Counted from the first letter of the stretch, positions 2,124 through 17,688 are shown. The stretch is DNA of 19,702 bases from a bacterium (GCA_024278345.1 JAJRTK010000050.1:1-19702); one strand, 5' to 3'. A program made the numbers and translations. The notes: a model not told the origin generated them from the sequence alone.

Positions 2124-3932
2124 ATGGGGCGACACGGTCACTATTCCTTGCAAAGAAGCGAGCACAGAATGAAAAGACGAGCGATGTCGGGAGTCCTGTT
2201 CGGCGCTCTCCTATTGGCCGGAGCCGCCCATACGCTGGCCGCGGATCGCGGCGGGCACATGAACTACAGCGGTCGCTTGAATCTCAGCGCGTTCGAACCG
2301 ATAACAAAGATGAATTCCGCGACGACGCGCTTTTGTGCGATGATTTTCGAGCAACTGCTTGAAAGAAAGAAAATCGGCACCGGTGTTCGGTGCAGAATGT
2401 GCAAGGACTACGACGCAAACGACAAGCTGATTACCTTCTACTTGCGCCAGGACATCAAATGGCATGACGGGGTTCCCTTCACTGCTTACGACGTGGAGTT
2501 CACCTACCGGCTCATCTCCAATCCCAAGACGGGGAGCGTGTTGCGGAAAGAATTCCAGTTCATTGAAGATGCCACGGTACTCGATGACCATTCCATCAGT
2601 TTTAGCTTCAGACACCCCGTGCCCAACGCCGATGCCTATTTTCTCTCCCTTCCCATCGTTCCGCGCCATAAATTCAGCGTATTCCTTCCCTCCTTGGTGG
2701 AAGACAAGAAGCCGGGAACCGTGCGAGAAGCGCGGCTCAACGCTATCCAGGTCTATGCTGGACCGAGTCCCAAGGAACGAAAACTGTTCAGGATCCCCGT
2801 GGGTGCTAAGTTGACCGTGCTCAAGTCGGATAAACGGTGGGCGGAAATCAAAATTATCGCCAAGGGGCCTGTGGGAAAACAGGGTTGGGTTCTGCAACAT
2901 CGCCCCGAAATCAACGAGATCGATGATGCCGAATTCATGACTTGGCCCATCGGTACGGGTCCTTACAAGTTCAATGGTTCAACGGTGAGCGGTGACGCTA
3001 ATCTCAAGGTCAATGAAGATTACTATGGGCGGAAGGGGTATATCCGCACCATCAGAAGAAAACGATCCCAAGATCCGCGCACCATGGTCAACCGCCTCAC
3101 CAACGAGGTGTTGGATCTTCTTCCGGAAACTCCTCTCGAAGATCTGGCCCGCATCCAGCAAAGTGGTGTTTGCAAGTTGATTTCCTACGCCTCATTGCGA
3201 TTCGCCGGACTCATGTACAATTGTCGAAACCCCAATTTGGCAAAGAAAGAGTTTCGGCAGGCTCTGACCTATGCCAGTAACCGTGTTCAGTGGCTTGACA
3301 CATTTTACCAGAAAAAGGGGTATCTCATCGCCGGCCCGGCGGCGCCGGATTCTTGGCTCTATAACACGGAGCTTCGACCGCTTCCCTTCGACCTCGCCAA
3401 GGCCAAGAAACTCCGGGCAAGCGCTGCGGGGAGGAAGCCAGTCAAGCTCAAGCTGGTTATCTCGAGTGATCGGCCGTCCCAGGACATGGATTTCGTGGCG
3501 GCATACAAGAATGCCATGGCGCAAATCAACGTCAACATCGAAATCGTTCCCCTCGAGCGCCTGGTTTTCTCTGAAACCCTTGCCAAGGGGAGGTTTGATA
3601 TAGCCTTTCAGGAGTACATCCTGAACTATGGCTACAATTATCGGCCTCTTTTTGAACCAGATGGGGACCAAAACTACGGCCACTACGACAATCAAGAACT
3701 GGGGGAAATTTTTCGGGCTTGGCGCCGGGAAACGGACTTTGAGGCAATCCGCACTCTGGCAAACAGGAGCCAGCAGATCCTTGCCGATGATTGCCCCTGG
3801 ACCTTTCTTTGGACCTTGAAGAACATTGCGGCCGTCCACAACAAGATCCGGAATATCCGGCACGAGAACATCGATCCCTACCGTTTCTTCACGTGGGTCC
3901 ACCAGTGGTGGATTCCCGAGGAAGCCCAGTGA
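2124..3932 (+). CDS. peptide-type ABC transporter substrate-binding protein (SBP family 5) with inserted SH3-like domain
   Basis: A 602-residue periplasmic binding protein of the DppA/OppA type. Family marks are the LRQDIKWHDGVPFTAYDVEFTY block (W113 onward), the IGTGPYKF block (about residues 276-283), and the C-terminal lobe with a LAKGRFDIAFQEY-like segment. A signal peptide follows MKRRAMSG (hydrophobic core, then HTLA-AD). Residues about 206-261 (nt 2739-2906) do not belong to the usual fold: VYAGPSPKERKLFRIPVG, then LTVLKSDKRWAEIK and GKQGWV match the bacterial SH3 (SH3b) pattern, inserted just before the GTGPY motif. ATG 2124 is preceded by AGGAGAG (2110-2116) at 7-nt spacing; ATG 2169 would give a more typical signal peptide but lacks a clear ribosome site. 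A CxxC pair (C90, C93) lies ahead of the WHDG block. The gene sits directly before two permeases and two ATPases. Peptide is the family substrate; the real ligand is not shown. Confidence 0.9.
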   Translation: MGRHGHYSLQRSEHRMKRRAMSGVLFGALLLAGAAHTLAADRGGHMNYSGRLNLSAFEPITKMNSATTRFCAMIFEQLLERKKIGTGVRCRMCKDYDANDKLITFYLRQDIKWHDGVPFTAYDVEFTYRLISNPKTGSVLRKEFQFIEDATVLDDHSISFSFRHPVPNADAYFLSLPIVPRHKFSVFLPSLVEDKKPGTVREARLNAIQVYAGPSPKERKLFRIPVGAKLTVLKSDKRWAEIKIIAKGPVGKQGWVLQHRPEINEIDDAEFMTWPIGTGPYKFNGSTVSGDANLKVNEDYYGRKGYIRTIRRKRSQDPRTMVNRLTNEVLDLLPETPLEDLARIQQSGVCKLISYASLRFAGLMYNCRNPNLAKKEFRQALTYASNRVQWLDTFYQKKGYLIAGPAAPDSWLYNTELRPLPFDLAKAKKLRASAAGRKPVKLKLVISSDRPSQDMDFVAAYKNAMAQINVNIEIVPLERLVFSETLAKGRFDIAFQEYILNYGYNYRPLFEPDGDQNYGHYDNQELGEIFRAWRRETDFEAIRTLANRSQQILADDCPWTFLWTLKNIAAVHNKIRNIRHENIDPYRFFTWVHQWWIPEEAQ

Positions 3933-4020
3933 GGGAGTTGCTGCCGAGTCGAACCGTGCGGCATTAGCGGGCATCTCGAAAGGGTGGGAGTTCGCTGGAG
4001 TTCCAACGATTATCGTGGGC

Positions 4021-4026
4021 GAGGGA
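4021..4026 (+). promoter_or_regulatory. Shine-Dalgarno site fixing the GTG start of the first permease
   Basis: GAGGGA at 4021-4026 lies 6 nt before GTG 4033. The reading frame is open back to 3826, inside the binding-protein gene, so this site decides the start and removes an implausible overlap of about 100 nt. Confidence 0.6.
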
Positions 4027-4032
4027 AAGTTA

Positions 4033-5067
4033 GTGTCCTCATCATCATCAGCCATCGAACTTGCGAAACCCCACGGCGGTACGGATGGGAAGGGAGCGGC
4101 ACGGTCTCTGGGCCGCCGGATCTTGTGGTTGTTGTTACAAATCGGGCGAATCGCGGTGGAAAATCTTGTGGTCTTCATCACGACGACACTCATTGTTTTC
4201 GCCTTGATTCGCTCCATCCCGGGCGATGAAGCCCTTTGGAGCTTGGGACCGGGCGCGGCGGCCCCGGAGGTGGAGTCCGTAGGCCACACCCGGAGGACCG
4301 ATCAGTCCTTCCTCCGGCAGTATTCCAGTTGGGTCTATGCCACATTGACTCTCAACCTTGGCATTTCGTCAGGTTTTCCCAATGCGGAAAGAATCAAGTT
4401 CGGAACTTGGGTGACTTGTAGCCTGACTTTGGGCGCAATCCTCGTCGTTGTGTTGATAGGGGTTCCCATCGGCCTTGCTTCGGGGCTTTATCCTGAGAGC
4501 TGGCTGTGGAATCAGGTCAGTTTTCTTGTGTACCTCGTGAGTATGGTGCCGATCTTTCTGCTGGCTTACGCGAGTTTTTTCTTTTGGCCGTTTCCACCAG
4601 TTTTGACGGATATCGATATACTGGTACGCCTAAATCCTCAGTATTCGGAGACCTATTTGTACGTGGCTATCTTTTCGACCATGGCCATCGTCTTGGCAGT
4701 TGGAGACGGGACGATTACGGAGTTGGTTCGTGCAGTACGGGAAGAAGTGGGACGAATTGCTGACTCGGAGTTCATCCGGGCTGTGCGGGCCAATGGCGGG
4801 GCTGTGTGGAAACATCTTGCCCGGAACCTGCTGGTCCCGATTTTGACGGTTTTGAACCTCCGAATCCTCTATCTTTTGGGAGGCGCCGTGGTGGTGGAGT
4901 CGGTCTTTGAGTACCCAGGGTTGGGACAGTTGACGGTAGAAGCGGTGAAGGATCGAGAATATGGCCTTGTCTTTGCCATCACAGTCGTGTCCGTATTGTT
5001 GGTTCTCCTTGTGACGGTCATCAACAAGTTCCTCATCCTTTTCCTCGATCCGCGGGCGAGGGACTAA
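4033..5067 (+). CDS. ABC transporter permease, DppB/OppB type
   Basis: A 344-residue inner-membrane permease of a peptide-type importer. The first membrane segment (about residues 44-64, VFITTTLIVFALIRSIPGDE) has the family's F-x-x-x-R-x-x-P-G-D ending. The cytoplasmic coupling loop (EAA motif) is at about residues 247-270 (FIRAVRANGGAVWKHLARN), followed by the conserved EYPGLGQL. About six membrane segments are visible, as in the family. The stretch between the first and second membrane segments lacks the usual LG-LDQP-type motif and is divergent. Start GTG 4033 is supported by GAGGGA six nt upstream. A 100-nt gap separates it from the binding-protein gene, in which I see no clear structure. 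The stop is 2 nt from the next permease start, so the two are probably translated together and form the channel heterodimer. Confidence 0.9.
   Translation: MSSSSSAIELAKPHGGTDGKGAARSLGRRILWLLLQIGRIAVENLVVFITTTLIVFALIRSIPGDEALWSLGPGAAAPEVESVGHTRRTDQSFLRQYSSWVYATLTLNLGISSGFPNAERIKFGTWVTCSLTLGAILVVVLIGVPIGLASGLYPESWLWNQVSFLVYLVSMVPIFLLAYASFFFWPFPPVLTDIDILVRLNPQYSETYLYVAIFSTMAIVLAVGDGTITELVRAVREEVGRIADSEFIRAVRANGGAVWKHLARNLLVPILTVLNLRILYLLGGAVVVESVFEYPGLGQLTVEAVKDREYGLVFAITVVSVLLVLLVTVINKFLILFLDPRARD
5058..5063 (+). promoter_or_regulatory. Shine-Dalgarno site for the second permease, inside the end of the first
   Basis: GAGGGA at 5058-5063 lies within the last codons of the upstream permease, 6 nt before GTG 5070. 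It supports the GTG start and coupled translation. Confidence 0.55.
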
Positions 5068-5069
5068 GC

Positions 5070-6056
5070 GTGCTGGCAACGGTGTACACAGACCGGCGCG
5101 ACGGCGGGATTTGGTACCGGCTGGTCCGGAGCGGGCGGCTTCGGGGGATCCTCAATGTCGTCTTGGGCTCAGTGCTTGTTTTGACGCTTCTTCTGCCCTA
5201 TTTGGCCAACATGGCCTCTTTTCTGGATGTGTCAGCGGATCCAAAGCCGTTGGAGCGCTTGCAGCCGCCAGACTGGAGTCTCCTGGCTCTTTGGCTGGAC
5301 AATCGCCCAACCGCCAAATCGGAACCTGGGAACCCCTTCGCTACCCGACCAAGAGCACGGCCTGAAACCGATGCCAACGGGTCTCCAAGGGCATTTCATC
5401 CATTGGGCACGGATTCGGCGGGACGGGACCTGTTTTCCTACATCATCCTGGGAGCCCATTCGGCCTTTCTTCCCGGACTCTATGCCGTCTTCCTTTCCCT
5501 TGGGCTAGGCTGCCTGTTCGGCGTGCTTTGGGGATACTACGGCGGCTGGCGTAGCTCGCTGGTTCAGGCCATCATCAAGATCGTCCACTCGATTCCAAGG
5601 CTTTTTCTGCTCCTGGTGGTGGGGGCTGCATCGAACTTCGGTATCTACTCCATCATGACGGCCCTTGGAATCGTGAGTTTCCCCAAGATCTCAGAGCTTA
5701 TCCGTGGCCGGATTCTGAGCCTCGAGAAGCAGGAATTCATCACGGCGGCCCGGGAAGTCGGCATGGGCGACCTCGCCATTCTAGTGAAGCACATCCTGTG
5801 GTACAATTGCCGGCACATCCTGTTCATCCAGGCCTCATTTGGGATGGCGGATGCGGTGCTGACGGAGACGACACTCTCCTACCTGGGCTTCGGGGCCCAG
5901 GCGAGCTGGGGGCAAATGGTGGCAACTGGAGACGACTATCTGTTCAACGGGGAACTTTGGGCAAGCGCTGTTCCGGCAATCGCCGTTGTGATGACCATCA
6001 CGGGTTTTTGCCTCATCGGGGACGGCCTTTCCAGAATCTTCAAGCTCAAGAGTTGA
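5070..6056 (+). CDS. ABC transporter permease, DppC/OppC type
   Basis: A 328-residue inner-membrane permease and partner of the preceding DppB-type protein. One N-terminal membrane segment (about residues 27-49) is followed by a periplasmic loop ending in the hallmark HPLGTDSAGRDLFS (H110 onward), then about five more membrane segments. The EAA coupling loop is at about residues 222-243 (EFITAAREVGMGDLAILVKHIL), and the conserved TLSYLGFGAQ-W-G-M block follows. Start GTG 5070 has GAGGGA at 6-nt spacing. The periplasmic loop before HPLGTD is rather long, with a Pro/Arg-rich stretch. The 151 nt before the next gene (6057-6207) show no convincing terminator. Confidence 0.92.
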   Translation: MLATVYTDRRDGGIWYRLVRSGRLRGILNVVLGSVLVLTLLLPYLANMASFLDVSADPKPLERLQPPDWSLLALWLDNRPTAKSEPGNPFATRPRARPETDANGSPRAFHPLGTDSAGRDLFSYIILGAHSAFLPGLYAVFLSLGLGCLFGVLWGYYGGWRSSLVQAIIKIVHSIPRLFLLLVVGAASNFGIYSIMTALGIVSFPKISELIRGRILSLEKQEFITAAREVGMGDLAILVKHILWYNCRHILFIQASFGMADAVLTETTLSYLGFGAQASWGQMVATGDDYLFNGELWASAVPAIAVVMTITGFCLIGDGLSRIFKLKS

Positions 6057-6207
6057 TCGCCTCTTCCCCGGCATTTGGATGGCTGTTTTGCGGTGACTGC
6101 GGATGATGGGACAAAACTGGTGTCCGGGAGTCGATGAAAGGCGAGCAGCGCGAGCGGCTGCGAGTGATGGGAGCGGAGTACAACCCAAGAAGGAAAAGCG
6201 GCATTCC

Positions 6208-7275
6208 ATGCGCAAACCTCTTCTGTCGATACGAGATCTCAGGACCTATTTCCACAGTGAACAGGGGCTGATCCGTGCCGTGGACGGAGTGGATCTCGAT
6301 GTCTATCAGGGTGAAATTCTGGGCATCGTGGGAGAGTCGGGATCCGGGAAAACGATGACCGTGTTCTCCATTCTGGGGCTTGTTCCGGCTGCACCGGGAA
6401 TCGTTTCGGGCTCCATTGTTTACGACGGCGAGAATCTGCTGGACCAGCTAGGGCGATACTGTTCTTTGGAAAAGAGCGAAGAAGGGATCATTGTGCGGAA
6501 GAGTGTCCGAGCCTGGCGCCGGCATTTTTCTCGGCGGCTGGTTCCCATCCGAGGCAGGCGGATCTCCATCATTTTTCAAGAGCCCGTGACGAGCCTCGAT
6601 CCGCTCTACAGCGTGGGCCAGCAGATCGCGGAGAGCTTGATTCGTTCCGGTCACTGTTCCTCGCGCCGCGAAGCGCGAGCCGAGGCTGGAGAATGGCTCG
6701 AAAAGGTCGCCATCCGTTCCCCGGACGTCATCGATTCCTATCCGCACCAGCTTTCCGGCGGGATGTGCCAGAGGATCATGCTGGCCATCGCCCTGGCCAG
6801 GCGACCGAACATTCTCATCGCTGATGAGCCCACCACCGCCCTCGACGCCAGCATCCAGCTCCAGATCCTCAATCTTCTTCGGGACCTTCGGGATGAACTT
6901 GGAATCACCATCATCCTCATCACTCATGACATGCACATCATCTCTCACTACGCCGACCGAGTCGCAATTTTTTATGCCGGGCGGGTCGTGGAGAGCGGGG
7001 ACTGTTCTCGGATCATGGCTGGCAGCAACGGGCGGCATCGGAGGCATCCCTACACCGACGGCCTGCTGCGCTCGATTCCGGTTCTTCGGGGGAATGAGGA
7101 AGCGAGAGAGCTCATTCCAATTCGCGGGGAGACTCCCTCTTCTTTGGTTCTCCCGCCTGGCTGCAAGTTCGAGCCCCGCTGCCAAGAATCAGTCGAAGCA
7201 TGTCTGGAAGAGCCGCCCCTTGTCGAGGTTGCACCCGAAACTTGGAACCGTTGTTGGTTACGGATGGAAACGTGA
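6208..7275 (+). CDS. ABC transporter ATP-binding protein, DppD/OppD type
   Basis: A 355-residue cytoplasmic ATPase for the adjacent permeases. Walker A is GESGSGKT (residues 42-49), the Q-loop lies in IIFQEP, the signature is LSGGM (from residue 182), Walker B is ILIADEP (202-208), and the switch His is in ITHDM. The C-terminal oligopeptide-transporter domain carries four cysteines, C319, C325, C332 and C349; in solved relatives such cysteines hold a [4Fe-4S] cluster. The frame extends back to ATG 6103, but the extra 35 residues look non-conserved and the family start matches MRKPLLSIRDL at 6208. AAGAAGGA at 6187-6194 is a usable but distant ribosome site (13 nt). The stop overlaps the next start (GTGA). 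Confidence 0.92.
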   Translation: MRKPLLSIRDLRTYFHSEQGLIRAVDGVDLDVYQGEILGIVGESGSGKTMTVFSILGLVPAAPGIVSGSIVYDGENLLDQLGRYCSLEKSEEGIIVRKSVRAWRRHFSRRLVPIRGRRISIIFQEPVTSLDPLYSVGQQIAESLIRSGHCSSRREARAEAGEWLEKVAIRSPDVIDSYPHQLSGGMCQRIMLAIALARRPNILIADEPTTALDASIQLQILNLLRDLRDELGITIILITHDMHIISHYADRVAIFYAGRVVESGDCSRIMAGSNGRHRRHPYTDGLLRSIPVLRGNEEARELIPIRGETPSSLVLPPGCKFEPRCQESVEACLEEPPLVEVAPETWNRCWLRMET

Positions 7276-8264
7276 GTCTGCTCAAAGTTGAAAACCTGTC
7301 AAAGTCCTTCAAAAGAGGTGGCCTCCTGGCAGCGTTCGGCGGCCGGAAAGCCCCCCCATTACAAGCGGTCCAAAACGTCAGTTTTTCGTTGGACCAGGGC
7401 GAGACTCTTGGGTTGGTAGGTGAATCCGGGTGCGGTAAGACGACTCTTGCCCGCTGTCTTTTGCTCTTGACCCGCCCGGACGAAGGCCGCATTCTTTTTC
7501 GCGGCCAGGAGCTCATGGAGCTTCCGTCTCGAGAGGTCAGGAAGCTCCGCGGCGAGATGCGTCTCATTTTCCAGAACCCAGATGCTGCCTTGAATCCCTA
7601 CATGCGGGTGGAGGCAATCCTTGATGAAGCTCTTGCCTACCAGACCTCCTTGCGCCGAAAGCAGCGACGGGAGCGTATTGCGGAGCTCTTGGATCTGGTC
7701 AACCTTCCGGCCTATTACGCCAACAACTATCCATACCAGCTTTCAGGAGGAGAAAAACGGCGAATCACCATTGCCCGGGTCCTGACGGGCAACCCAAGCC
7801 TCATCATCGGTGATGAGCCTGTTTCGGCCTTAGACGTCTCCATCCAGGCGCAAATCCTGAATCTACTGGAAAAACTCCAAGCTGAACGGTCCATTTCCTA
7901 CATTTTCATCAGCCACGACATTGGCGTCGTCAAGTACATGAGCCACCGCATCGCCGTGATGTACCGCGGCCGGATGGTGGAGCTTGGTCTCAAAGCTCAC
8001 TTCAACCAGACAACGCCGCAACATCCCTACTCGGAGCTGCTCTTCAGTTCGGTACTGCTGGACGAAAAAGCCGATTCCCTTGGCACGGAGGCCATCGAGG
8101 CGCTGGAAATGAAGTCGGAGTCATCGGTGGGATGCCCCTTTGTTGCTCGTTGCCACAGGGCGAAGCGGTTGGGCATGCCCAGAGAGTGTCATGAGCTGGA
8201 GCCCAGGCTGGAATCCGTCGAGACGGAGCATTCCATCGCTTGTCACTATCCCTTTGAAGAGTGA
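7272..8264 (+). CDS. ABC transporter ATP-binding protein, DppF/OppF type
   Basis: A 330-residue second ATPase of the importer. Walker A is GESGCGKT (50-57), Q-loop Q101, signature LSGGE (157-161), Walker B LIIGDEP (177-183) and switch H215. The C-terminal domain has four cysteines (C288, C294, C306, C324) matching the Fe-S-binding arrangement known in this family. I place the start at GTG 7272, overlapping the upstream TGA as GTGA, with GGATGG just ahead; longer starts would overlap the DppD-type gene by tens of bases. Between the first strand and Walker A sits the usual DppF-type insertion (FKRGGLLAAFGGRKAPP). This is the last gene of the block and converges on lpxC, with only 32 nt between the stops. 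Confidence 0.92.
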   Translation: MSLLKVENLSKSFKRGGLLAAFGGRKAPPLQAVQNVSFSLDQGETLGLVGESGCGKTTLARCLLLLTRPDEGRILFRGQELMELPSREVRKLRGEMRLIFQNPDAALNPYMRVEAILDEALAYQTSLRRKQRRERIAELLDLVNLPAYYANNYPYQLSGGEKRRITIARVLTGNPSLIIGDEPVSALDVSIQAQILNLLEKLQAERSISYIFISHDIGVVKYMSHRIAVMYRGRMVELGLKAHFNQTTPQHPYSELLFSSVLLDEKADSLGTEAIEALEMKSESSVGCPFVARCHRAKRLGMPRECHELEPRLESVETEHSIACHYPFEE

Positions 8265-10400: not shown

Positions 10401-10985
10401 ATGACCGACGAGAAAATGGCACTGGATGCCGATCCCCCCGCAAGTACGATTGGTTTCAAGGTTAGAGGCTTCCTGCATCGCAATCGGGACGTCGTTCAGT
10501 TTTGCGTCCTGTTCACGTCTCTGACGCTGGTGTTGAACCTGATCTACAATCGGTACGAGCAATCCGAGTTCATGCTCTGGTATTCGACTCTCAACGCCAA
10601 GCTTGTGCATGCGACCTATGAATGGCTTGAGCTCAAGACCTTCATCAGCCGCTATACGGTGACGGTCGAGGGTTTTAGCATGAGCATCGCTCCTGTTTGC
10701 ACCGCCGTTTCAACGATGATCATCTATTTTGCCTGCATCGCGGCTTATCCTGCCAGTTTCGGAAAAAAACTGTTGGGCCTTCTGATTGGAATTCCCTCAC
10801 TGGCGCTTCTGAACTTTTCCCGCCTTCTGCTCTTGGGTTACCTTGGGTATACAAACCAGGAACTCTTCGATTTCGTCCATCTCTATCTGTTTCAGGTGAT
10901 CTTTATCGCGTTCGTCATCGTCCTGTGGCTCACCTGGATCGACAAGATTGTTCAAGATGCAAGGCAAGCTCCTGTTCCTGCTTAA
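10401..10985 (+). CDS. exosortase/archaeosortase-family transmembrane protein
   Basis: A 194-residue integral membrane protein with about five to six hydrophobic segments. The exosortase catalytic triad is visible: C100 in IAPVCTAV, R141 in LLNFSRLLLLGYLG, and H160 in FDFVHLYLFQVIF. Exosortases process and probably transfer surface proteins carrying a C-terminal tripartite sorting tail (for example PEP-CTERM). Here the Cys is followed by T-A instead of the more common [TSN]-G. It is a short, single-domain form without the C-terminal EpsI-like domain. ATG 10401 has TGAGGA at 10391-10396. The next gene overlaps its 3' end by 29 nt. No CTERM-type substrate is encoded in this window. The family assignment is fairly sure; the subfamily is not. 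Confidence 0.8.
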   Translation: MTDEKMALDADPPASTIGFKVRGFLHRNRDVVQFCVLFTSLTLVLNLIYNRYEQSEFMLWYSTLNAKLVHATYEWLELKTFISRYTVTVEGFSMSIAPVCTAVSTMIIYFACIAAYPASFGKKLLGLLIGIPSLALLNFSRLLLLGYLGYTNQELFDFVHLYLFQVIFIAFVIVLWLTWIDKIVQDARQAPVPA

Positions 10986-11484
10986 GTTTTTGTTCCTGGT
11001 TTCCGTGGCGATGTTGGGTTGGCTCCTTGTGGCACCTGGCTATCTCCGAATCCTGGGCCAGGAGTCCGCTGCGATCCTCAATGCACTGGGCTACACCGTT
11101 CTTTCCACAGGTGTCACTCAACTCCAGATCGTCTTTCAGCTTGACACAACCCACAATGTGAGCTTTGCCGCGATCTCCTCTACTTTGAATCTGGTGGTTT
11201 TCGTTGCTCTGGTCGTTGCCACGCCGGGCACTCCCTGGCGTCGTCGCTTGGCCTCCCTTGTTTTGGGAACGCTTCTTCTCCACCTGGCCCACGTTGGGTA
11301 TTTGTTAGGCGTCTTCACTGTCAACTACACTTATGAACCAACGAGCGCCGTGAGTCGAGCTTTTGCCTCCATCACGGACATGCTCCACCTCCTTCTGCCC
11401 TTTCTGCTTTGGGCAGTCATGGAGGCGCCCCGACTTTTCCGCAAACGGCCAACAGCACCACCTGCGTTCGACGGCGTGGGATAA
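10957..11484 (+). CDS. small membrane protein, possible catalytically degenerate exosortase relative
   Basis: A 175-residue protein with about four membrane segments (roughly 7-29, 76-90, 97-121, 141-156), overlapping the exosortase gene by 29 nt. I do not recognise it by name, although small exosortase-associated membrane proteins are known. Reading it against the upstream exosortase shows a matching layout. ISSTLNLVVFVALVVATP lines up with CTAVSTMIIYFACIAAYP, both ending in Pro. RRRLASLVLGTLLLHLAHVGYL follows, as KKLLGLLIGIPSLALLNFSRLL does, and DMLHLLLPF lines up with DFVHLYLFQ. At these positions the Cys is I73 and the Arg is G114, while H144 is kept after an 11-residue longer loop. If this alignment holds, it is a pseudoenzyme partner. 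ATG 10957 is preferred; TTG 10948 is possible. Confidence 0.7.
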   Translation: MQGKLLFLLKFLFLVSVAMLGWLLVAPGYLRILGQESAAILNALGYTVLSTGVTQLQIVFQLDTTHNVSFAAISSTLNLVVFVALVVATPGTPWRRRLASLVLGTLLLHLAHVGYLLGVFTVNYTYEPTSAVSRAFASITDMLHLLLPFLLWAVMEAPRLFRKRPTAPPAFDGVG

Positions 11485-11502
11485 ACGGCTGGACACCCCC
11501 CT

Positions 11503-11506
11503 GGAG
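11503..11506 (+). promoter_or_regulatory. Shine-Dalgarno site fixing the hydrolase start
   Basis: GGAG at 11503-11506 lies 6 nt before ATG 11513. The frame is open back to 11363 inside the upstream gene, so this site decides the start. Confidence 0.5.
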
Positions 11507-11512
11507 AACCGT

Positions 11513-12424
11513 ATGCCCACAGGACCCATGACCGCTATCTTTGAAGGAGTGGAACGCTCCACCGTCCAGAGTGCCGACGGAGTCACCATCGCCTACGAAC
11601 GGATCGGTGATGCCGACCGGTGCATCGTCCTTGCCAACGGCCTGGGTGGGCGTCTCTACACCTGGAAACCCATCGTCGATGCTTTCCGGGACAACTACCG
11701 GATCCTCACCTGGGACTACCGCGGTCTTTTCGGTTCGGATGCGCCTGATATCCGCCGGCACATGAGCGTTCACTTCCATGCTCAGGACCTTGTGGCAATG
11801 CTGGACAAGGAAGGAATCGATCAGGCGTGCCTCATGGGCTGGAGCATGGGGGTCCAGGTTTCCTTGGAGACCGCAACGCTCTTCCCCGAGCGCGTCAAGA
11901 GCCTTGTTCTTATCAACGGCACCCACGGGCACACCATGGAAACGGCCTTCCAGCCGCTCTTCCGGGTTCCCTGGCTTCCCGGCGTTCTCCACGCCATCAT
12001 TGATCGGGCGCGAGAGCGACCCCCCTGGCTCCAGCTCATTCAGGCGCTCCTGCGAAATCAAGTGTCCAACCAGGTCATTGGTGGTTTTCTGGCCTGGGCG
12101 TGGAAGAATCCCACTTTCGCCATCGCCTACCGGCAGTATTTTGAGGATATTTTTCAAGAAGACAACTTTCCCAACTACCTGAGCCTATTTCAAGAGCTGG
12201 ACGGCCACTCGGTCATCCACCACCTGCGAGACATCGAACAGCCCGCTTTGGTGGTAAGTGGTGCCCTGGATGTTCTCACGCCCGCCTATCAGTCAAGCGA
12301 AATGGCGCGCCGCCTTCCCGATGTCGAGCACCTGAAACTCCCATTTGGCACGCACTTTGTGCTCCTAGAGTTTCCTGAGAAGGTCGTGGGTCGCATCAAT
12401 CAGTTCTTAGCCAAGAACGGCTAA
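11513..12424 (+). CDS. alpha/beta-fold hydrolase
   Basis: A 303-residue soluble alpha/beta hydrolase. The oxyanion region is ANGLGG (41-46), the DYRG turn is at 68-71, the nucleophile elbow is GWSMG with S111, the acid is D253 in SGALDVLTP, and the histidine is H281 in FGTHFVLLE, so the Ser-Asp-His triad is complete. No signal peptide or membrane segment is seen, so it probably acts in the cytoplasm or at the inner face of the membrane. A cap region (about residues 143-220, rich in Trp, Leu and Arg) would set the substrate, which cannot be read from sequence. Its place between the exosortase pair and two lipid-type membrane enzymes suggests an ester or thioester lipid substrate; that is inference. 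The gene starts 28 nt after the previous stop. Confidence 0.88.
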   Translation: MPTGPMTAIFEGVERSTVQSADGVTIAYERIGDADRCIVLANGLGGRLYTWKPIVDAFRDNYRILTWDYRGLFGSDAPDIRRHMSVHFHAQDLVAMLDKEGIDQACLMGWSMGVQVSLETATLFPERVKSLVLINGTHGHTMETAFQPLFRVPWLPGVLHAIIDRARERPPWLQLIQALLRNQVSNQVIGGFLAWAWKNPTFAIAYRQYFEDIFQEDNFPNYLSLFQELDGHSVIHHLRDIEQPALVVSGALDVLTPAYQSSEMARRLPDVEHLKLPFGTHFVLLEFPEKVVGRINQFLAKNG

Positions 12425-12485
12425 AAAGGGACGTTTTATTTGACCGGTTGGGGGACTCGCCCTTTCATCCTTGAGCCCCGCGGTG

Positions 12486-12513
12486 GTGGGCGCAGCTGCG
12501 GAGTGCAGCCCAC
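12486..12513 (+). other. inverted repeat in the gap before the CarS-like gene
   Basis: GTGGGC (12486-12491) and GCCCAC (12508-12513) form a 6-bp stem around the perfect 10-bp palindrome CGCAGCTGCG (12491-12500). There is no T-run, so a Rho-independent terminator is unlikely; an mRNA processing or attenuation structure is possible. It lies within the 114-nt gap 12425-12538. Confidence 0.3.
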
Positions 12514-12538
12514 AGGACAACTTCAACGAGGGTTCACC

Positions 12539-13201
12539 ATGCTGCTGCTCACCTATTTTCAGGCTCTTCCCTGCCCTTGGCCGATGGACTGGGCCGCGGG
12601 CTTCACCGGCAGCTTCTTACTCGTGCTGAAGATCCTGTATCTGGCGCTTCCGCCGACATTGGCTGGGATTCTTCACATGGCGGCGGCGAAGCTCGATCTC
12701 CTGCCATCCTTGAACCGACCCGTGGATGGCGGTTACACCTGGCGAGGACGGCGGATCTTCGGTCGGAACAAGACATGGCGGGGCCTTCTGCTCATCCCTG
12801 TTCTGACGGCCCTTTTTTTCTATGGTCAGGCTTGGAGCTTCAAATGGTGCCAGTGGGCCAGAAGTATGAGCTTTTTCGACTACACTTTTCCACGGAGCTA
12901 CTGGACCCCCCTGACCGCGGGATTTGTGTACGGCCTTGGGTATGCCCTGGCGGAGCTTCCCAACAGTTTTGTGAAGCGCCAGCTTGGAATCGGCCCCGGC
13001 CAGGAGGCAGCCAACGAGGTCCGGTGGGTATTTCTCCTATTGGATCAAGGCGATTCGGTGCTGGGATGCCTTTTGGCGCTCTGCCTTTTCTGGTGCCCGC
13101 CGTGGAAGCTGTTCTTCCTCATGCTCCTAGTGGGAACGCTGCTTCACCTTGCCATGAACTTTCTGCTCTACCTGGCGGGGCTTCGCAAGCGTCCTGTCTA
13201 A
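12539..13201 (+). CDS. CDP-archaeol synthase-like (CarS/DUF46 family) integral membrane protein
   Basis: A 220-residue membrane protein with about five hydrophobic segments. It carries the marks of the CarS family, which in archaea transfers CMP from CTP to unsaturated archaetidic acid: RPVDGGYTWRGRRIFGRNKTWRG (residues 60-82, cytidylyltransferase loop with GRNKTWRG), ELPNSFVKRQLGI (139-151), and LLLDQGDSVLG (167-177) with the conserved Asp. It resembles bacterial CdsA in topology, but GRNKT-G and LPNSFxKR are the CarS form. ATG 12539 is preceded by GAGGG at 12528-12532. Bacterial members are known from genome surveys; their true substrate is uncertain. The neighbouring UbiA-like gene makes a polyprenyl or ether-lipid substrate attractive, but unproven. 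Confidence 0.8.
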   Translation: MLLLTYFQALPCPWPMDWAAGFTGSFLLVLKILYLALPPTLAGILHMAAAKLDLLPSLNRPVDGGYTWRGRRIFGRNKTWRGLLLIPVLTALFFYGQAWSFKWCQWARSMSFFDYTFPRSYWTPLTAGFVYGLGYALAELPNSFVKRQLGIGPGQEAANEVRWVFLLLDQGDSVLGCLLALCLFWCPPWKLFFLMLLVGTLLHLAMNFLLYLAGLRKRPV

Positions 13202-13236
13202 GGCCTCGGAAAATTGCCTATCGGGATCGCTGGAAC

Positions 13237-13243
13237 GGAGAAG
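13237..13243 (+). promoter_or_regulatory. Shine-Dalgarno site supporting a TTG start
   Basis: GGAGAAG at 13237-13243 lies 6 nt before TTG 13250. The competing ATG 13268 has no comparable site. Confidence 0.5.
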
Positions 13244-13249
13244 ATAATT

Positions 13250-14170
13250 TTGGCCAATCGGACTGAGATGCCTGGGTTGCCGGCACGTCTTCGGACTTAT
13301 TTTCGGGTGATGTTTCCCCTTTGGGTGAACGTGCCCGCGGGACTTCTCATGTTCTGGAGTTTTTCCGTGGCGGTTCGGGCGGCCCAAGGTTTGCCCATGA
13401 GCTTTGGTTTAGTTGAGCTTCGCGGCGCCGTGACAGTACTCTTGTGCATGTTGTTGCCCAGACTTCTCGATGAGCTCAAGGACGAAGATATCGACGCCAG
13501 TCTCTTCCCCCACCGGCCACTGGTCACCGGTGAAGTGCTTTATTCAGATATTCGTTTCTTGACACTCGGGGCGATTCTTCTGGCAGTGGGCCTCAATTTG
13601 GGAGGCGGGCCGTCCACTGCGGCATTTCTACTCTTTTTTGCGCTTCTGGTTCTGTCGTGGCAATGGTGGATGTTCCCCCAGTTCGTTGCCTCACGAACCG
13701 GGCTCGTGCTCTTAACCCACCAGCCGCTTGCGCCAGCCTTGCTTCTATACGTTTACGCGCTCAATCTGGAGGCCACCGGGGCAACTCCCGATTTCTACGT
13801 GGCAACCTTGCTCTGTGTGATATTCTGGTTTCCCCTGTTCGCCTGGGAGATCGGGCGGAAAGTCCGCTCCCCTCAGGACGAGACGGAGTACTGGACTTAT
13901 TCGAGGATGTGGGGACCGCGGGCCGCGGCGTTGGTCCCAGTATTGGCCCTCACCTTGGCCGGAGGATTGATGGCGGCGTCCTGGAAAAAGCTAGGCGCCG
14001 GAACGGGATTCGCTGCGGGTCACGTCCTGTTGATTCTTGTCATGGCCGCCGGTTCGATGCCCTTCCTGGTGGCTCCGGCGGAACGTCGTTGTCGGGTTCG
14101 CAGCCTCGTGGAGGGCTATATTTTCGGGTTTCACCTTCTGACAGCCGGATGGTTAACCTTCCAGGGCTGA
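13250..14170 (+). CDS. UbiA-superfamily prenyltransferase-like membrane protein
   Basis: A protein of about 306 residues with eight or so membrane segments. The first Asp-rich motif is DELKDEDID (D74-D82) followed by the HRPLVTGE block (R89-P90), in place of the textbook NDxxDxxxD-RP. The second is EIGRKVRSPQDE-TYS (E200 onward), corresponding to the DxxxD motif of the family. These bind Mg-diphosphate of a prenyl donor in UbiA, MenA, chlorophyll synthase and archaeal DGGGP synthase. The DELKD/EIGRK variants place it in an uncharacterised bacterial branch. TTG 13250 is favoured by GGAGAAG; ATG 13268 and TTG 13214 are alternatives. Donor and acceptor are unknown. The CarS-like enzyme just upstream would fit as the next step if the product were a prenylated glycerophosphate. 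Confidence 0.82.
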   Translation: MANRTEMPGLPARLRTYFRVMFPLWVNVPAGLLMFWSFSVAVRAAQGLPMSFGLVELRGAVTVLLCMLLPRLLDELKDEDIDASLFPHRPLVTGEVLYSDIRFLTLGAILLAVGLNLGGGPSTAAFLLFFALLVLSWQWWMFPQFVASRTGLVLLTHQPLAPALLLYVYALNLEATGATPDFYVATLLCVIFWFPLFAWEIGRKVRSPQDETEYWTYSRMWGPRAAALVPVLALTLAGGLMAASWKKLGAGTGFAAGHVLLILVMAAGSMPFLVAPAERRCRVRSLVEGYIFGFHLLTAGWLTFQG

Positions 14171-14204
14171 ATCTCAAGAAGCGTTTCCAGATGTCGCGAG
14201 GATC

Positions 14205-14211
14205 GAGGAGG
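14205..14211 (+). promoter_or_regulatory. strong Shine-Dalgarno site for a TTG start
   Basis: GAGGAGG at 14205-14211 lies 5 nt before TTG 14217, making the TTG start of the RND-type gene well supported. Confidence 0.65.
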
Positions 14212-14216
14212 CTAAG

Positions 14217-16517
14217 TTGGAGCGGTTGGTTCGGTTTTTTTTTGAGTTGATTCTGAGGTTCCGTTTGCTCGTGGCGCTGGGGCTCGCTTTGGCCACAGCC
14301 TGGTTCGCCTTCGAGTGCCGTGACCTTCGGATCGATTTTTCGGTGGAGCAGTATTTTCCCCACAACGACCCAGACAAGGAATTCTACGACCGGTACAAGG
14401 AAATTTTTCCCGACGAAGATACCGTGGGATTCGTCTTGGTAGAGGGTGAACTCTTTCAGCCCAAGAGCTTGAAAACTCTGGATCGGATAACGCGGAAACT
14501 CGAAGGACTGCTGGACATCGTCGAGAGCGTGACGAGTCTGACGAATGTGCAAACAGTGCGAAGCCTAGATGGCATCCTGGACACCGGCGGCAAGCTCCTT
14601 GCAAATTTTGGTCTTCCGCCCGATCAGATGGAAAAGGTGCGAAAAGAGATCCTGGGAGACCCTCTGTTGGCGGATCGCTTGATTTCGAAGGATGGCCGAA
14701 TTGCCGTCATCAGAGTGGGCCTTCGCCTCGACCGGAACACCGAGGAAGGGCGCGAGGCATTTGTGACGTCGCTCCACCAGGCAATGGCGGAGTTCCAAGA
14801 CAAAGGCTTCCGTATCACCGTGACGGGGCTGCCTGTAGTCAGAGCCGAGATCGTGAGGATGCTCGAAAAGGATCAGCAGCTCTTTGGCCTTGTCTTCTTG
14901 CTGGTGGTCATCTTGCTAGGGCTCTGTTTCCGCTCCGTGGCGGATGTCAGCGTTTCCGTGGGCGTGATCCTTCTCTCGGTGGTCTGGACCCTGGGCATGA
15001 TGGCGTACATGGGGTATCCAGTGACTTTCTTGTCCACGGTCACCCCCATCATCATCATGATCGTGGGGATCTCCGATGCCATCCATGTCATCGGTTGCTA
15101 CCGAGACCTCATTCCCCGGACCTCCAACGCGGAGGAAGCGCTCCTTCAAACCTTCCAGGAAATGTCCAGCGCCTGCCTTCTAACAAGTGTCACAACGGCT
15201 ATCGGTTTCTTGGCGCTCTTGGCTATGAATATCGAAGTGGCGGGACAATTCGGGCTGGCCACGGCATTTGGAGTTATGGCAGCGTACGTGCTGAACATGC
15301 TTTTCCTCCCGGTGGTCTATTCTTTTCTCCCGGCGCCCAAACAGAAAGTTGCGATGCTTGCTCCGACGACAGGAGATGTGGCCAGGTTCCTCTCGACGAC
15401 AGTCTTCTGGATCGAGAAGCGCCAGATTCCAATCTTGGTTGGGTTCGCCACATTTGCCTTGGTCTGCGGGATTTCGGCATCGAAGCTGGAAGCCCTGAGC
15501 TTGATGTATGGGGATTTAAAGGAATCCACCGACCTTTACAAACGAAACCAGTACGTGGACGAAAGATTCGGAGGCACACTTCCCTTGACCATTTTGTTCG
15601 AGGCGACCGGGGAGGATGACGAAGTCGTCTTGCGACCCGAGACGCTTCGTGCGATGAAACATCTGGCGGAATCACTGGAACGGGAGCCGGAAATCGGTGA
15701 CGCAGCCTCCATCGTGGAGCTCGTGGAAAAAGCGAATGCCGTGTTGCACGATGAAGAACCTGGCTCGCGGGCAATCCCAGATTCGGCCGCTCTTATTATG
15801 TCCGAGATCCAGCTTCTTGATCGGTCCCTCTACGCCGATCTTCTCTCGAGTGATTATCGGGCAGCGCAGGTTCGAGCACGGATCACGGATTGCGGATCGA
15901 AAAAGATGGCCGAAATCTTGCGCCGGCTCCGGCAGGAGATCGCAAAGATCCAAATCCCCGGGTTGAGTGTGGCCGCTACCGGCACCACCGTCTTTGTTCA
16001 GCGCGTGTTCGACGAGGTCGTCTACAGTCTGGTGGGCAGTTTGGGACTGGCGCTCATTCTAATCTTGGGGGTACTCGCGGCATTACTACGGAATTGGAGA
16101 TTGGTGACGGTAGCAATGATCGCCAATGCGTTGCCCGTACTTTTCGTCTTTGCGGCCCTCTGGTGGACAGGAAATTCCCTCAAGCCCGAAACCGTGCTCC
16201 TAGCGAGCATTGTTCTAGGTCTTGCCGTGGACGACACGATCCACGTGGTGGCTCGCCTGCGGATTGAGCGCCAGCGTTCCCAAAACCTGCCCGATGCACT
16301 TCGTGCCACCCTTTCCCGCACGGGGCTAGCAGCGGTGATGACGACGGCGATTCTTTCTGGCGGTTACATTTCGCTCTGTCTAGCCAGTTTTTACGGGTTA
16401 CATGATATGGGGGTCATGATATCAAGCGCCCTGCTGGTGGCATTGGTTTGCGATCTGATCTTATTGCCCGCGTGTCTTCTAGTGCTGGAGAAAAAGCCCA
16501 CAAAGAACCTGCCCTAA
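14217..16517 (+). CDS. RND-superfamily (MMPL/SSD-type) exporter
   Basis: A 766-residue inner-membrane transporter with the duplicated RND plan: one membrane segment (about 14-31), a large periplasmic domain, five more membrane segments, then the same again. The proton-relay region of the first half has VGISDAIHV (D287) in the fourth-segment position; the second half has LGLAVDDTIHVVARL (D672-D673). It is shorter than AcrB-type drug pumps and fits the MMPL/COG1033 group, which moves lipids and hydrophobic compounds (MmpL, HpnN-like). TTG 14217 follows a strong GAGGAGG. It is the last gene of the + strand block, 46 nt after the UbiA-like gene, so export of the lipid made by its neighbours is a reasonable guess. 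No periplasmic adaptor or outer-membrane channel is present in the window. Confidence 0.88.
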   Translation: MERLVRFFFELILRFRLLVALGLALATAWFAFECRDLRIDFSVEQYFPHNDPDKEFYDRYKEIFPDEDTVGFVLVEGELFQPKSLKTLDRITRKLEGLLDIVESVTSLTNVQTVRSLDGILDTGGKLLANFGLPPDQMEKVRKEILGDPLLADRLISKDGRIAVIRVGLRLDRNTEEGREAFVTSLHQAMAEFQDKGFRITVTGLPVVRAEIVRMLEKDQQLFGLVFLLVVILLGLCFRSVADVSVSVGVILLSVVWTLGMMAYMGYPVTFLSTVTPIIIMIVGISDAIHVIGCYRDLIPRTSNAEEALLQTFQEMSSACLLTSVTTAIGFLALLAMNIEVAGQFGLATAFGVMAAYVLNMLFLPVVYSFLPAPKQKVAMLAPTTGDVARFLSTTVFWIEKRQIPILVGFATFALVCGISASKLEALSLMYGDLKESTDLYKRNQYVDERFGGTLPLTILFEATGEDDEVVLRPETLRAMKHLAESLEREPEIGDAASIVELVEKANAVLHDEEPGSRAIPDSAALIMSEIQLLDRSLYADLLSSDYRAAQVRARITDCGSKKMAEILRRLRQEIAKIQIPGLSVAATGTTVFVQRVFDEVVYSLVGSLGLALILILGVLAALLRNWRLVTVAMIANALPVLFVFAALWWTGNSLKPETVLLASIVLGLAVDDTIHVVARLRIERQRSQNLPDALRATLSRTGLAAVMTTAILSGGYISLCLASFYGLHDMGVMISSALLVALVCDLILLPACLLVLEKKPTKNLP

Positions 16518-16574
16518 GCCCGGAACTCTTATCACGGATCGTCACGAGGCGGTCCTAGATGAGAGTTCTGGGCT
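16517..16574. terminator. probable bidirectional terminator between convergent genes
   Basis: Arms 16517-16533 and 16558-16574 pair as a 17-bp stem with 15 of 17 matches (core AACTCT / AGAGTT, ends AGCCC / GGGCT), with a 24-nt loop. It fills the gap between the RND gene stop (16515-16517) and the GNAT-like gene stop (16573-16575) and overlaps both stop codons. There is no strong T-tract on either side, and the loop is long. Confidence 0.55.
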
Positions 16575-17688
16575 AAAGCTCCTTTCGGTAAAGGACGTAT
16601 TCGCGGCTGGCCGCACCGGTTTTACTGTAGACCGTGGGTCCTTCCAGAGCCAGTGCGCCAATGGCCTCGCGATAGCCCAGCTCGAATGCTTTGTCGAAAA
16701 CGGGAGCCAAAAAGGTCTCCACCATTCCTTGGCGGCGGAACTCTTTTTTTAGAGCCATGGTGTGAAAAATCAAGCGCCGGGTTCCCCTGCGAGTTTTGCG
16801 AAAGAAGCTGAACTTTGAAAGAAGCCCGCTCCGGCCGTTCATGGCGCGGAGGGCCTCCGAATGGTCGGGATAGAGATAAGCCAGCGCCACGGGATCTCCC
16901 CGGGGCGAGACCACAAAGCAGACAAGCTCCGGATCGACGAGATGCCGCATTCCACTGTACAACGCCTGGAACTCCCCCATATCGATGGGGCTGTAGCCGG
17001 GATGTTCATGGAATGCCTCCACCAATAGGGCGTGGAGCTTCTCTAATTCCTCCTCGAAGCAATCAAGGTCGATGGGGGCCAGCCGAAAGCCTTCTTCCAA
17101 GATTTCGGGCCGGGCCATCTGGGTCGCGGCTGCACGCATTCCCAAGAGTTGCGCCTCACTGAGGTCCCAAGAATACCAGCGGCCCTTGGGAAGGAATCCA
17201 AAGTCGTCGAACAGCTCTGGGTAGTAACTGGGGTTGTAGGGCTCGCCATAGAAAGGCAAACGTCCAAAGCCGTTGGTCATCAAGCGGTAGGAATGCCAGA
17301 TGGAGAAGTTCATGGGGCCCCAAACTTCTTCCAGGCCACGATCCTGAAGCCACTGGCAAGCGGCGGATAGAACAGCATCGCTCCCTTCGCGCCACCTTAC
17401 GGATTCGTAGAATCCCACGACACCCACCGGCCTACCACCAGGCCGCAAGCGCTTGTTCCAAATGGCCGAACAGCGTGCCACAGGGCGATTCCCGTCAAAA
17501 GCAAGAAAACTGCGCATCGCTCCGTACTGGAAGAAAGGATTCTCCTCCGACAAGAGTCGCCGAAGCTCTTTTTTGAACGGGGGAATCCAAAGTCCGTCTC
17601 CTCGGTAGACCTCCCACGGAAGATCGATGAACTCTTTTAAGAGCTTGTCACTGCAGTCAAAGCTTTCCACACGCATCGGTTGGCCCAT
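16573..17688 (-). CDS. GNAT-superfamily acyltransferase-like protein
   Basis: A 371-residue soluble protein of a family usually annotated as GNAT-like of unknown substrate. The N-terminal part has the typical W-x-VYRGDGLWIPP block (about residues 25-38), NPFFQYG, and FLAFDGNRPVARCSAIWN, a GNAT-like strand set. The middle has GPMNFSIWHSYRLMTNGF followed by PYNPSYYPELFDDFGF. The C-terminal part has MALKKEFRRQGM-ETFL, the R/Q-x-x-G/A acyl-CoA pyrophosphate loop, and the terminal YVLYRKEL. ATG 17688 and ATG 17676 are both possible; neither has a clear ribosome site. It lies downstream of comM with 129 nt between. Nothing here identifies the acyl donor or acceptor. Confidence 0.8.
   Translation of the reverse strand: MGQPMRVESFDCSDKLLKEFIDLPWEVYRGDGLWIPPFKKELRRLLSEENPFFQYGAMRSFLAFDGNRPVARCSAIWNKRLRPGGRPVGVVGFYESVRWREGSDAVLSAACQWLQDRGLEEVWGPMNFSIWHSYRLMTNGFGRLPFYGEPYNPSYYPELFDDFGFLPKGRWYSWDLSEAQLLGMRAAATQMARPEILEEGFRLAPIDLDCFEEELEKLHALLVEAFHEHPGYSPIDMGEFQALYSGMRHLVDPELVCFVVSPRGDPVALAYLYPDHSEALRAMNGRSGLLSKFSFFRKTRRGTRRLIFHTMALKKEFRRQGMVETFLAPVFDKAFELGYREAIGALALEGPTVYSKTGAASREYVLYRKEL

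Follow-up and report, generated by a model that had tools for sequence, protein, structure and literature searches.

The six codirectional genes at positions 10401-16517 of the window, the 19,702-nucleotide stretch of DNA analysed here, probably form two adjoining units of separate function, namely an XrtH exosortase pair and a piece of a lipid pathway. The first would be an ordinary XrtH exosortase with a non-catalytic partner, present as a second copy besides a phylum-wide pair encoded on contig C202 of the same genome. The second, made up of CarS-like, UbiA-like and MMPL genes together with a convergent GNAT-like gene, would be part of a bacterial polar-lipid pathway, the rest of which would lie on contigs C85 and C235. 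The lipid half is the more interesting half of the run. The gene identities, co-occurrence and conserved motifs on which this view draws were established by computation.

The window is one entire contig (G000:C517) of the metagenome-assembled genome (MAG) of an uncultured bacterium (6.06 Mb in 550 contigs, 87.9% complete). Relatives were sampled as seven other genomes of the host phylum, none of them from the host genus or family. The initial annotation had described a six-gene run with short gaps, and all six genes were indeed present on the + strand at 10401-16517, followed by a convergent gene. In order, the features are:

10401..10985, + strand, XrtH-type exosortase of 194 aa (TIGR04177, PF09721; Cys100, Arg141 and His160 intact)
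10957..11484, + strand, exosortase partner membrane protein (weak XrtH match; start given by the ORF tool TTG 10948)
11513..12424, + strand, alpha/beta-fold hydrolase (PF00561; ORF tool start 11363)
12539..13201, + strand, CarS-like CDP-lipid synthase (PF01864; ORF tool start TTG 12440)
13268..14170, + strand, UbiA-like transferase (PRK13592; ORF tool start TTG 13214)
14217..16517, + strand, MMPL/RND exporter of HAE3 type, 766 aa (PF03176)
16573..17688, - strand, GNAT-like acyltransferase of 371 aa (PF00583), convergent with the six-gene run

Revised starts were ATG at 10957, 11513, 12539 and 13268, and TTG at 14217 with GAGGAGG upstream, which resulted in intergenic gaps of -29, 28, 114, 66 and 46 bases between genes 1 to 6. 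As these genes are codirectional, their gaps do not exceed 114 bases and no terminator-like site was found in the gaps, one operon would fit. The start of the hydrolase gene at ATG 11513 is preceded by GGAGA. The hydrolase itself matched Abhydrolase_1 (PF00561) at 75.3 bits and its best NCBIfam matches were far under their cut-offs, for which reason no specific substrate was assigned. The GC-rich spacer that follows it (12425-12538) folded no better than shuffled sequences (z 0.89) and had no second copy in the 0.5 Mb of host sequence searched. Elsewhere in the window, a 42-base unit is present in three perfect, in-frame copies at the contig end (1-127), where the resulting MVTIRRPTKTPTKR repeats open a TPR-containing frame; these repeats are possibly the reason for the contig ending here. 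Positions 2124-8264 hold a peptide-type ABC importer operon encoding two permeases, two ATPases and a binding protein with an internal SH3_3 match.

The exosortase passed the XrtH model TIGR04177 (91.1 bits, cut-off 86) as well as PF09721 (31.5, cut-off 25.7), and Cys100, Arg141 and His160 were invariant across an alignment of 16 homologues. Its AlphaFold model had a pLDDT of 88, and its profile had no match among PDB sequences. The partner gene begins 29 bases within gene 1 and encodes a cysteine-free protein that is itself a weak XrtH match (24.5 bits). Profile-profile comparison of partner and exosortase gave a probability of 90% and an E value of 1.4e-6, the latter referring to that one comparison. 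In the AlphaFold model of the partner (pLDDT 92) three strands are followed by three helices, the element order of the exosortase, and a Foldseek search of this model against the PDB returned nothing at E <= 0.001. On account of the missing cysteine, the repeated element order and the profile kinship, the partner looks like a non-catalytic relative of the exosortase. The model for the XrtH-associated membrane protein, NF041730, matched neither the window partner nor that of C202, and with a phylum relative it scored 20.8 (cut-off 35).

Such an exosortase pair is ordinary and already known in kind: outside the host, the partner directly follows XrtH in 14 of the 16 loci read, as it does in the window and on C202, and the host carries a second pair. 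Of the two loci in which no partner was listed, one is ended by a contig edge and the other yielded none by the ORF filter. XrtH-like matches were found in 22 of 386 genomes, including 8/8 of the host phylum. The C202 copy is 38-46% identical to the phylum copies and the window copy 30-39%; in the exosortase tree the latter was unplaced, on a long branch, and there was no starred set. A third exosortase-like protein and its neighbour are encoded on the minus strand of contig C373 (L011 = G000:C373) at 344-2509 and 2975-5392; the former is a 721-aa frame with a weak likeness to XrtK, under cut-off, and the neighbour weakly resembles VIT-domain proteins of XrtN and MSEP-CTERM systems.

The system in the window shares with the known XrtH and NF041730 system the passing of the XrtH cut-off, the Cys/Arg/His residues and a partner directly 3', and differs from it in the sorting tails of the host, which are of a looser VPxL type. 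A search of the host with TIGR04174 (IPTL-CTERM) gave nothing over cut-off, and it was weak matches to this model that pointed to the actual tails. These include VVPGLGAAG, VSVPALGSLG, VVPGLSWPV and LPGAVEVIGQAPWSLFF, and the C202 locus encodes a protein with the C-terminal end VVPGLGAAGVVVLLLLFGLLLNPVCWRKLTS which, by our own reading of the sequence, appears to be composed of repeated BNR-like motifs. A simple filter yielded nine tail candidates in 0.88 Mb of host sequence that had partly been picked for weak tail matches, and about six of these look like sorting tails. A tail profile recovered its four training sequences and one more weak match. Tripartite-tailed proteins, a search for which was advised in the initial annotation, exist in the host genome; none was found within the window.

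The genes of the second unit were compared with curated models and solved structures. The CarS-like protein exceeded the cut-off of PF01864 (44.6, cut-off 22) and fell under that of the equivalog NF003114 (61.7, cut-off 148). Its nearest solved structure is CDP-archaeol synthase (5guf, E 6e-7), with which it shares the stretches SFVKRxLGI, LLDQxD and G(R)NKTWRG/GDGKTIEG. The UbiA-like protein matched PF01040 under cut-off (22.3 bits, cut-off 34.2) and the prenyltransferase model PRK13592 at 103 bits, other prenyltransferase models giving low scores. Its alignments contain the motifs DELKDEDID...FPHRPL and EIGRKVRSPxDExEYxTYS, and its family profile picks up DGGGP synthase (6m31, E 7.5e-8). The MMPL exporter matched PF03176 at 146.5 bits and TIGR00921 at 229 bits, the latter under the cut-off of 351.9, and in other genomes an MMPL homologue shares a run with UbiA and a PigC-like gene. 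The convergent GNAT-like gene (PF00583, 21.9 over the cut-off of 20.7) has relatives adjoining UbiA in the loci L002, L003 and L188, of which the L003 relative is 27% identical (E 2e-41) and the L002 relative matches at E 2e-9. It seems that this gene is also part of the lipid set; a ceramide synthase would be one tentative identity for its product. No match to UbiA, CarS or the partner was obtained by tblastn against plasmids.

Further members of the set are encoded elsewhere in the host. A search with a PigC-like ligase profile gave two strong matches, at 766 and 567 bits. One contig, C85 (G000, L116), carries a PssA-like gene and a PigC/RedH-like ligase, and another, C235 (G000, L117), carries on one strand and in this order a ligase, a PigE-like aminotransferase-reductase fusion, a LolA-like protein and Psd. 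Among named models, the host PssA best matches archaetidylserine synthase (83 bits, under cut-off); against the "protein sorting system archaetidylserine synthase" model it scores 45 bits, likewise under cut-off. Psd passes TIGR00163 (193, cut-off 112).

The same combination of genes recurs in other genomes. Among 28 UbiA-like loci, a PigC/RedH-like ligase was present in 19, a BtaA-like gene in 12, MMPL in 7 and LolA-like in 5, followed by GNAT and PigE-like (3 each), CarS and Psd (2 each) and PssA (1). A single family (f123) contributes many of these loci, and some lie on short contigs, so that the counts are neither independent nor complete. Two loci, L002 and L096, have CarS adjoining both UbiA and a PigC-like gene. 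The loci L002 and L003 were reached via UbiA-like relatives, and a wider profile search yielded many more. L002 holds a PigE-like fusion, two PigC-like ligases, PssA, CarS, GNAT, UbiA and an ICMT/PEMT-like gene, and L003 holds PigC-like, UbiA, GNAT and Psd genes. Within the host phylum, XrtH was found in all 8 genomes, UbiA-like in 2 and CarS in 2. Outside it, four genomes of the 386-genome sample carried a UbiA-like gene, all four without XrtH. Across L002, L003, L025, L096, L169-L188, L116 and L117 the set comes with MMPL/LolA-like export genes and with head-group genes that differ from locus to locus (BtaA-like, PssA, Psd, CarS, PEMT-like). A compact cluster of PigC-like, PigE-like, PigC-like, BtaA-like, Psd and UbiA genes in L187 (G397:C27, 26-10447) unites both head-group branches. 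Recurring as it does in several distant lineages, the UbiA-like/PigC-like set looks like an undescribed bacterial lipid pathway. A literature search for the gene set found no description of it, and one for exosortase H gave nothing relevant. That the run takes part in the synthesis and export of a lipid, as proposed in the initial annotation, is made plausible by the occurrence of its CarS-like, UbiA-like and MMPL genes in a recurrent set whose other members the host encodes.

The likeness to PigC and PigE raises the alternative that the product of the UbiA/PigC/PigE-like set is a secreted secondary metabolite and not a structural polar lipid. It would arise through a prodigiosin- or tambjamine-like condensation on a fatty amine and be exported by MMPL, the exosortase being a chance neighbour. 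The ligases have the PPDK_N and PEP-utilisers domain order of prodigiosin PigC/RedH, and the fusion resembles the aminotransferase-reductase PigE. In NCBIfam the C85 ligase matches the RedH/PigC models at 337 and 321 bits and the fusion matches PigE at 301 bits, scores that are all far under the curated cut-offs. The PigC likeness is moreover not specific, since the same C85 ligase scores 706 bits on the generic phosphoenolpyruvate synthase model, above its RedH/PigC scores. Unlike in the prodigiosin system, the neighbours are lipid head-group genes (PssA, Psd, BtaA-like, PEMT/ICMT-like, PlsC), which recur with the set, as does a LolA-like gene, and we consider a secondary metabolite quite improbable as its product.

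The archaeal ether-lipid pathway (GGGPS, DGGGPS, CarS) offers a second comparison, as among solved structures the UbiA-like protein is nearest to DGGGP synthase and the CarS-like protein to CDP-archaeol synthase. An archaeal-lipid reading of these two genes was tested through a search of the host for GGGPS (PF01884), and no match over cut-off was found in this 87.9% complete genome, compared to 5 of 14 control genomes. The pathway differs further in that PigC-like and PigE-like partners are foreign to the archaeal one. In bacteria of the FCB group GGGPS is present along with DGGGPS, and no CarS was detected in their MAGs (PMC7852524).

For the polar-lipid pathway favoured here, we infer the substrates, the step order and the export as follows. 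The hydrophobic core of the lipid would be built by the UbiA-like protein together with the PigC-like and PigE-like enzymes, and CarS would convert the phosphorylated lipid to a CDP-lipid. Serine would then be added by PssA and decarboxylated to ethanolamine by Psd, leaving the head group with an amine; transport of the lipid to the outer envelope would fall to MMPL together with the LolA-like protein. In other lineages a BtaA-like enzyme may stand in place of the CarS/PssA branch.

The adjacency of the two units suggests that such a lipid could be the protein anchor. To our knowledge, the acceptor to which bacterial exosortases attach their substrates is not settled. The window XrtH could cleave a C-terminal tail and link the protein to the CarS/UbiA/PssA/Psd lipid at its amine head group, with MMPL moving the lipid or the lipidated protein, as a bacterial counterpart of ArtA and archaetidylethanolamine. 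In archaea, archaetidylethanolamine is supplied by steps of the UbiA, CarS, PssA and Psd types, and its free amine has been proposed to resolve the acyl enzyme of ArtA; ArtA-dependent maturation in Haloferax requires PssA and PssD, and artA-pssA-pssD synteny is seen in Methanosarcina (PMC7157517). Besides this ArtA-PssA-PssD precedent, the exosortase pair and the lipid genes are adjacent and codirectional, the host PssA and Psd stand by PigC-like genes of the same set, and the host encodes tripartite-tailed proteins. By a rough estimate, chance alone would place an exosortase locus <2 kb from any of three lipid loci with a probability near 1% at a genome size of 6 Mb, a value that counts against the view of separate units.

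Nevertheless, both units occur together in no other genome examined. CarS, UbiA, GNAT, MMPL and PigC-like genes were near XrtH in 0/16 loci of other genomes, and an exosortase (E <= 1e-4) was present at 0/28 of their UbiA-like loci. These counts leave the attachment of proteins to the lipid, as put forward in the initial annotation, unsupported. Within this sample of other genomes the pair and the lipid genes were never adjacent, which is the outcome that the initial annotation itself had named as refuting its reading. Further, the host PssA (C85) and Psd (C235) are on contigs away from the window exosortase, lipid sets are found in genomes without XrtH, and the pair on C202 has a tailed protein close to it and no lipid genes. 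The archaeosortase A and PssA/PssD system likewise has an exosortase-superfamily peptidase by CDP-lipid metabolism, with PssA and Psd in the genome; it differs from the present case in that here CarS-like, UbiA-like and MMPL genes are the neighbours, PssA and Psd lie elsewhere and the adjacency is unconserved. We therefore regard the lipid as an unlikely acceptor of the exosortase, which would be a neighbour of the lipid genes and not their client. By analogy with the archaeal system, which is a real precedent, and with a sample free of same-genus genomes, a lineage-specific link may nonetheless exist.

In its joining of an exosortase pair with lipid genes the arrangement is new; it is similar to that of archaea and rests on one MAG. 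If the locus works as a unit, it would name a candidate exosortase acceptor, and gene deletion combined with mass spectrometry could then address the question. Should it not, the recurrent set of UbiA-like, PigC-like, CarS or BtaA, PssA-Psd and MMPL-LolA genes points to a bacterial lipid pathway.
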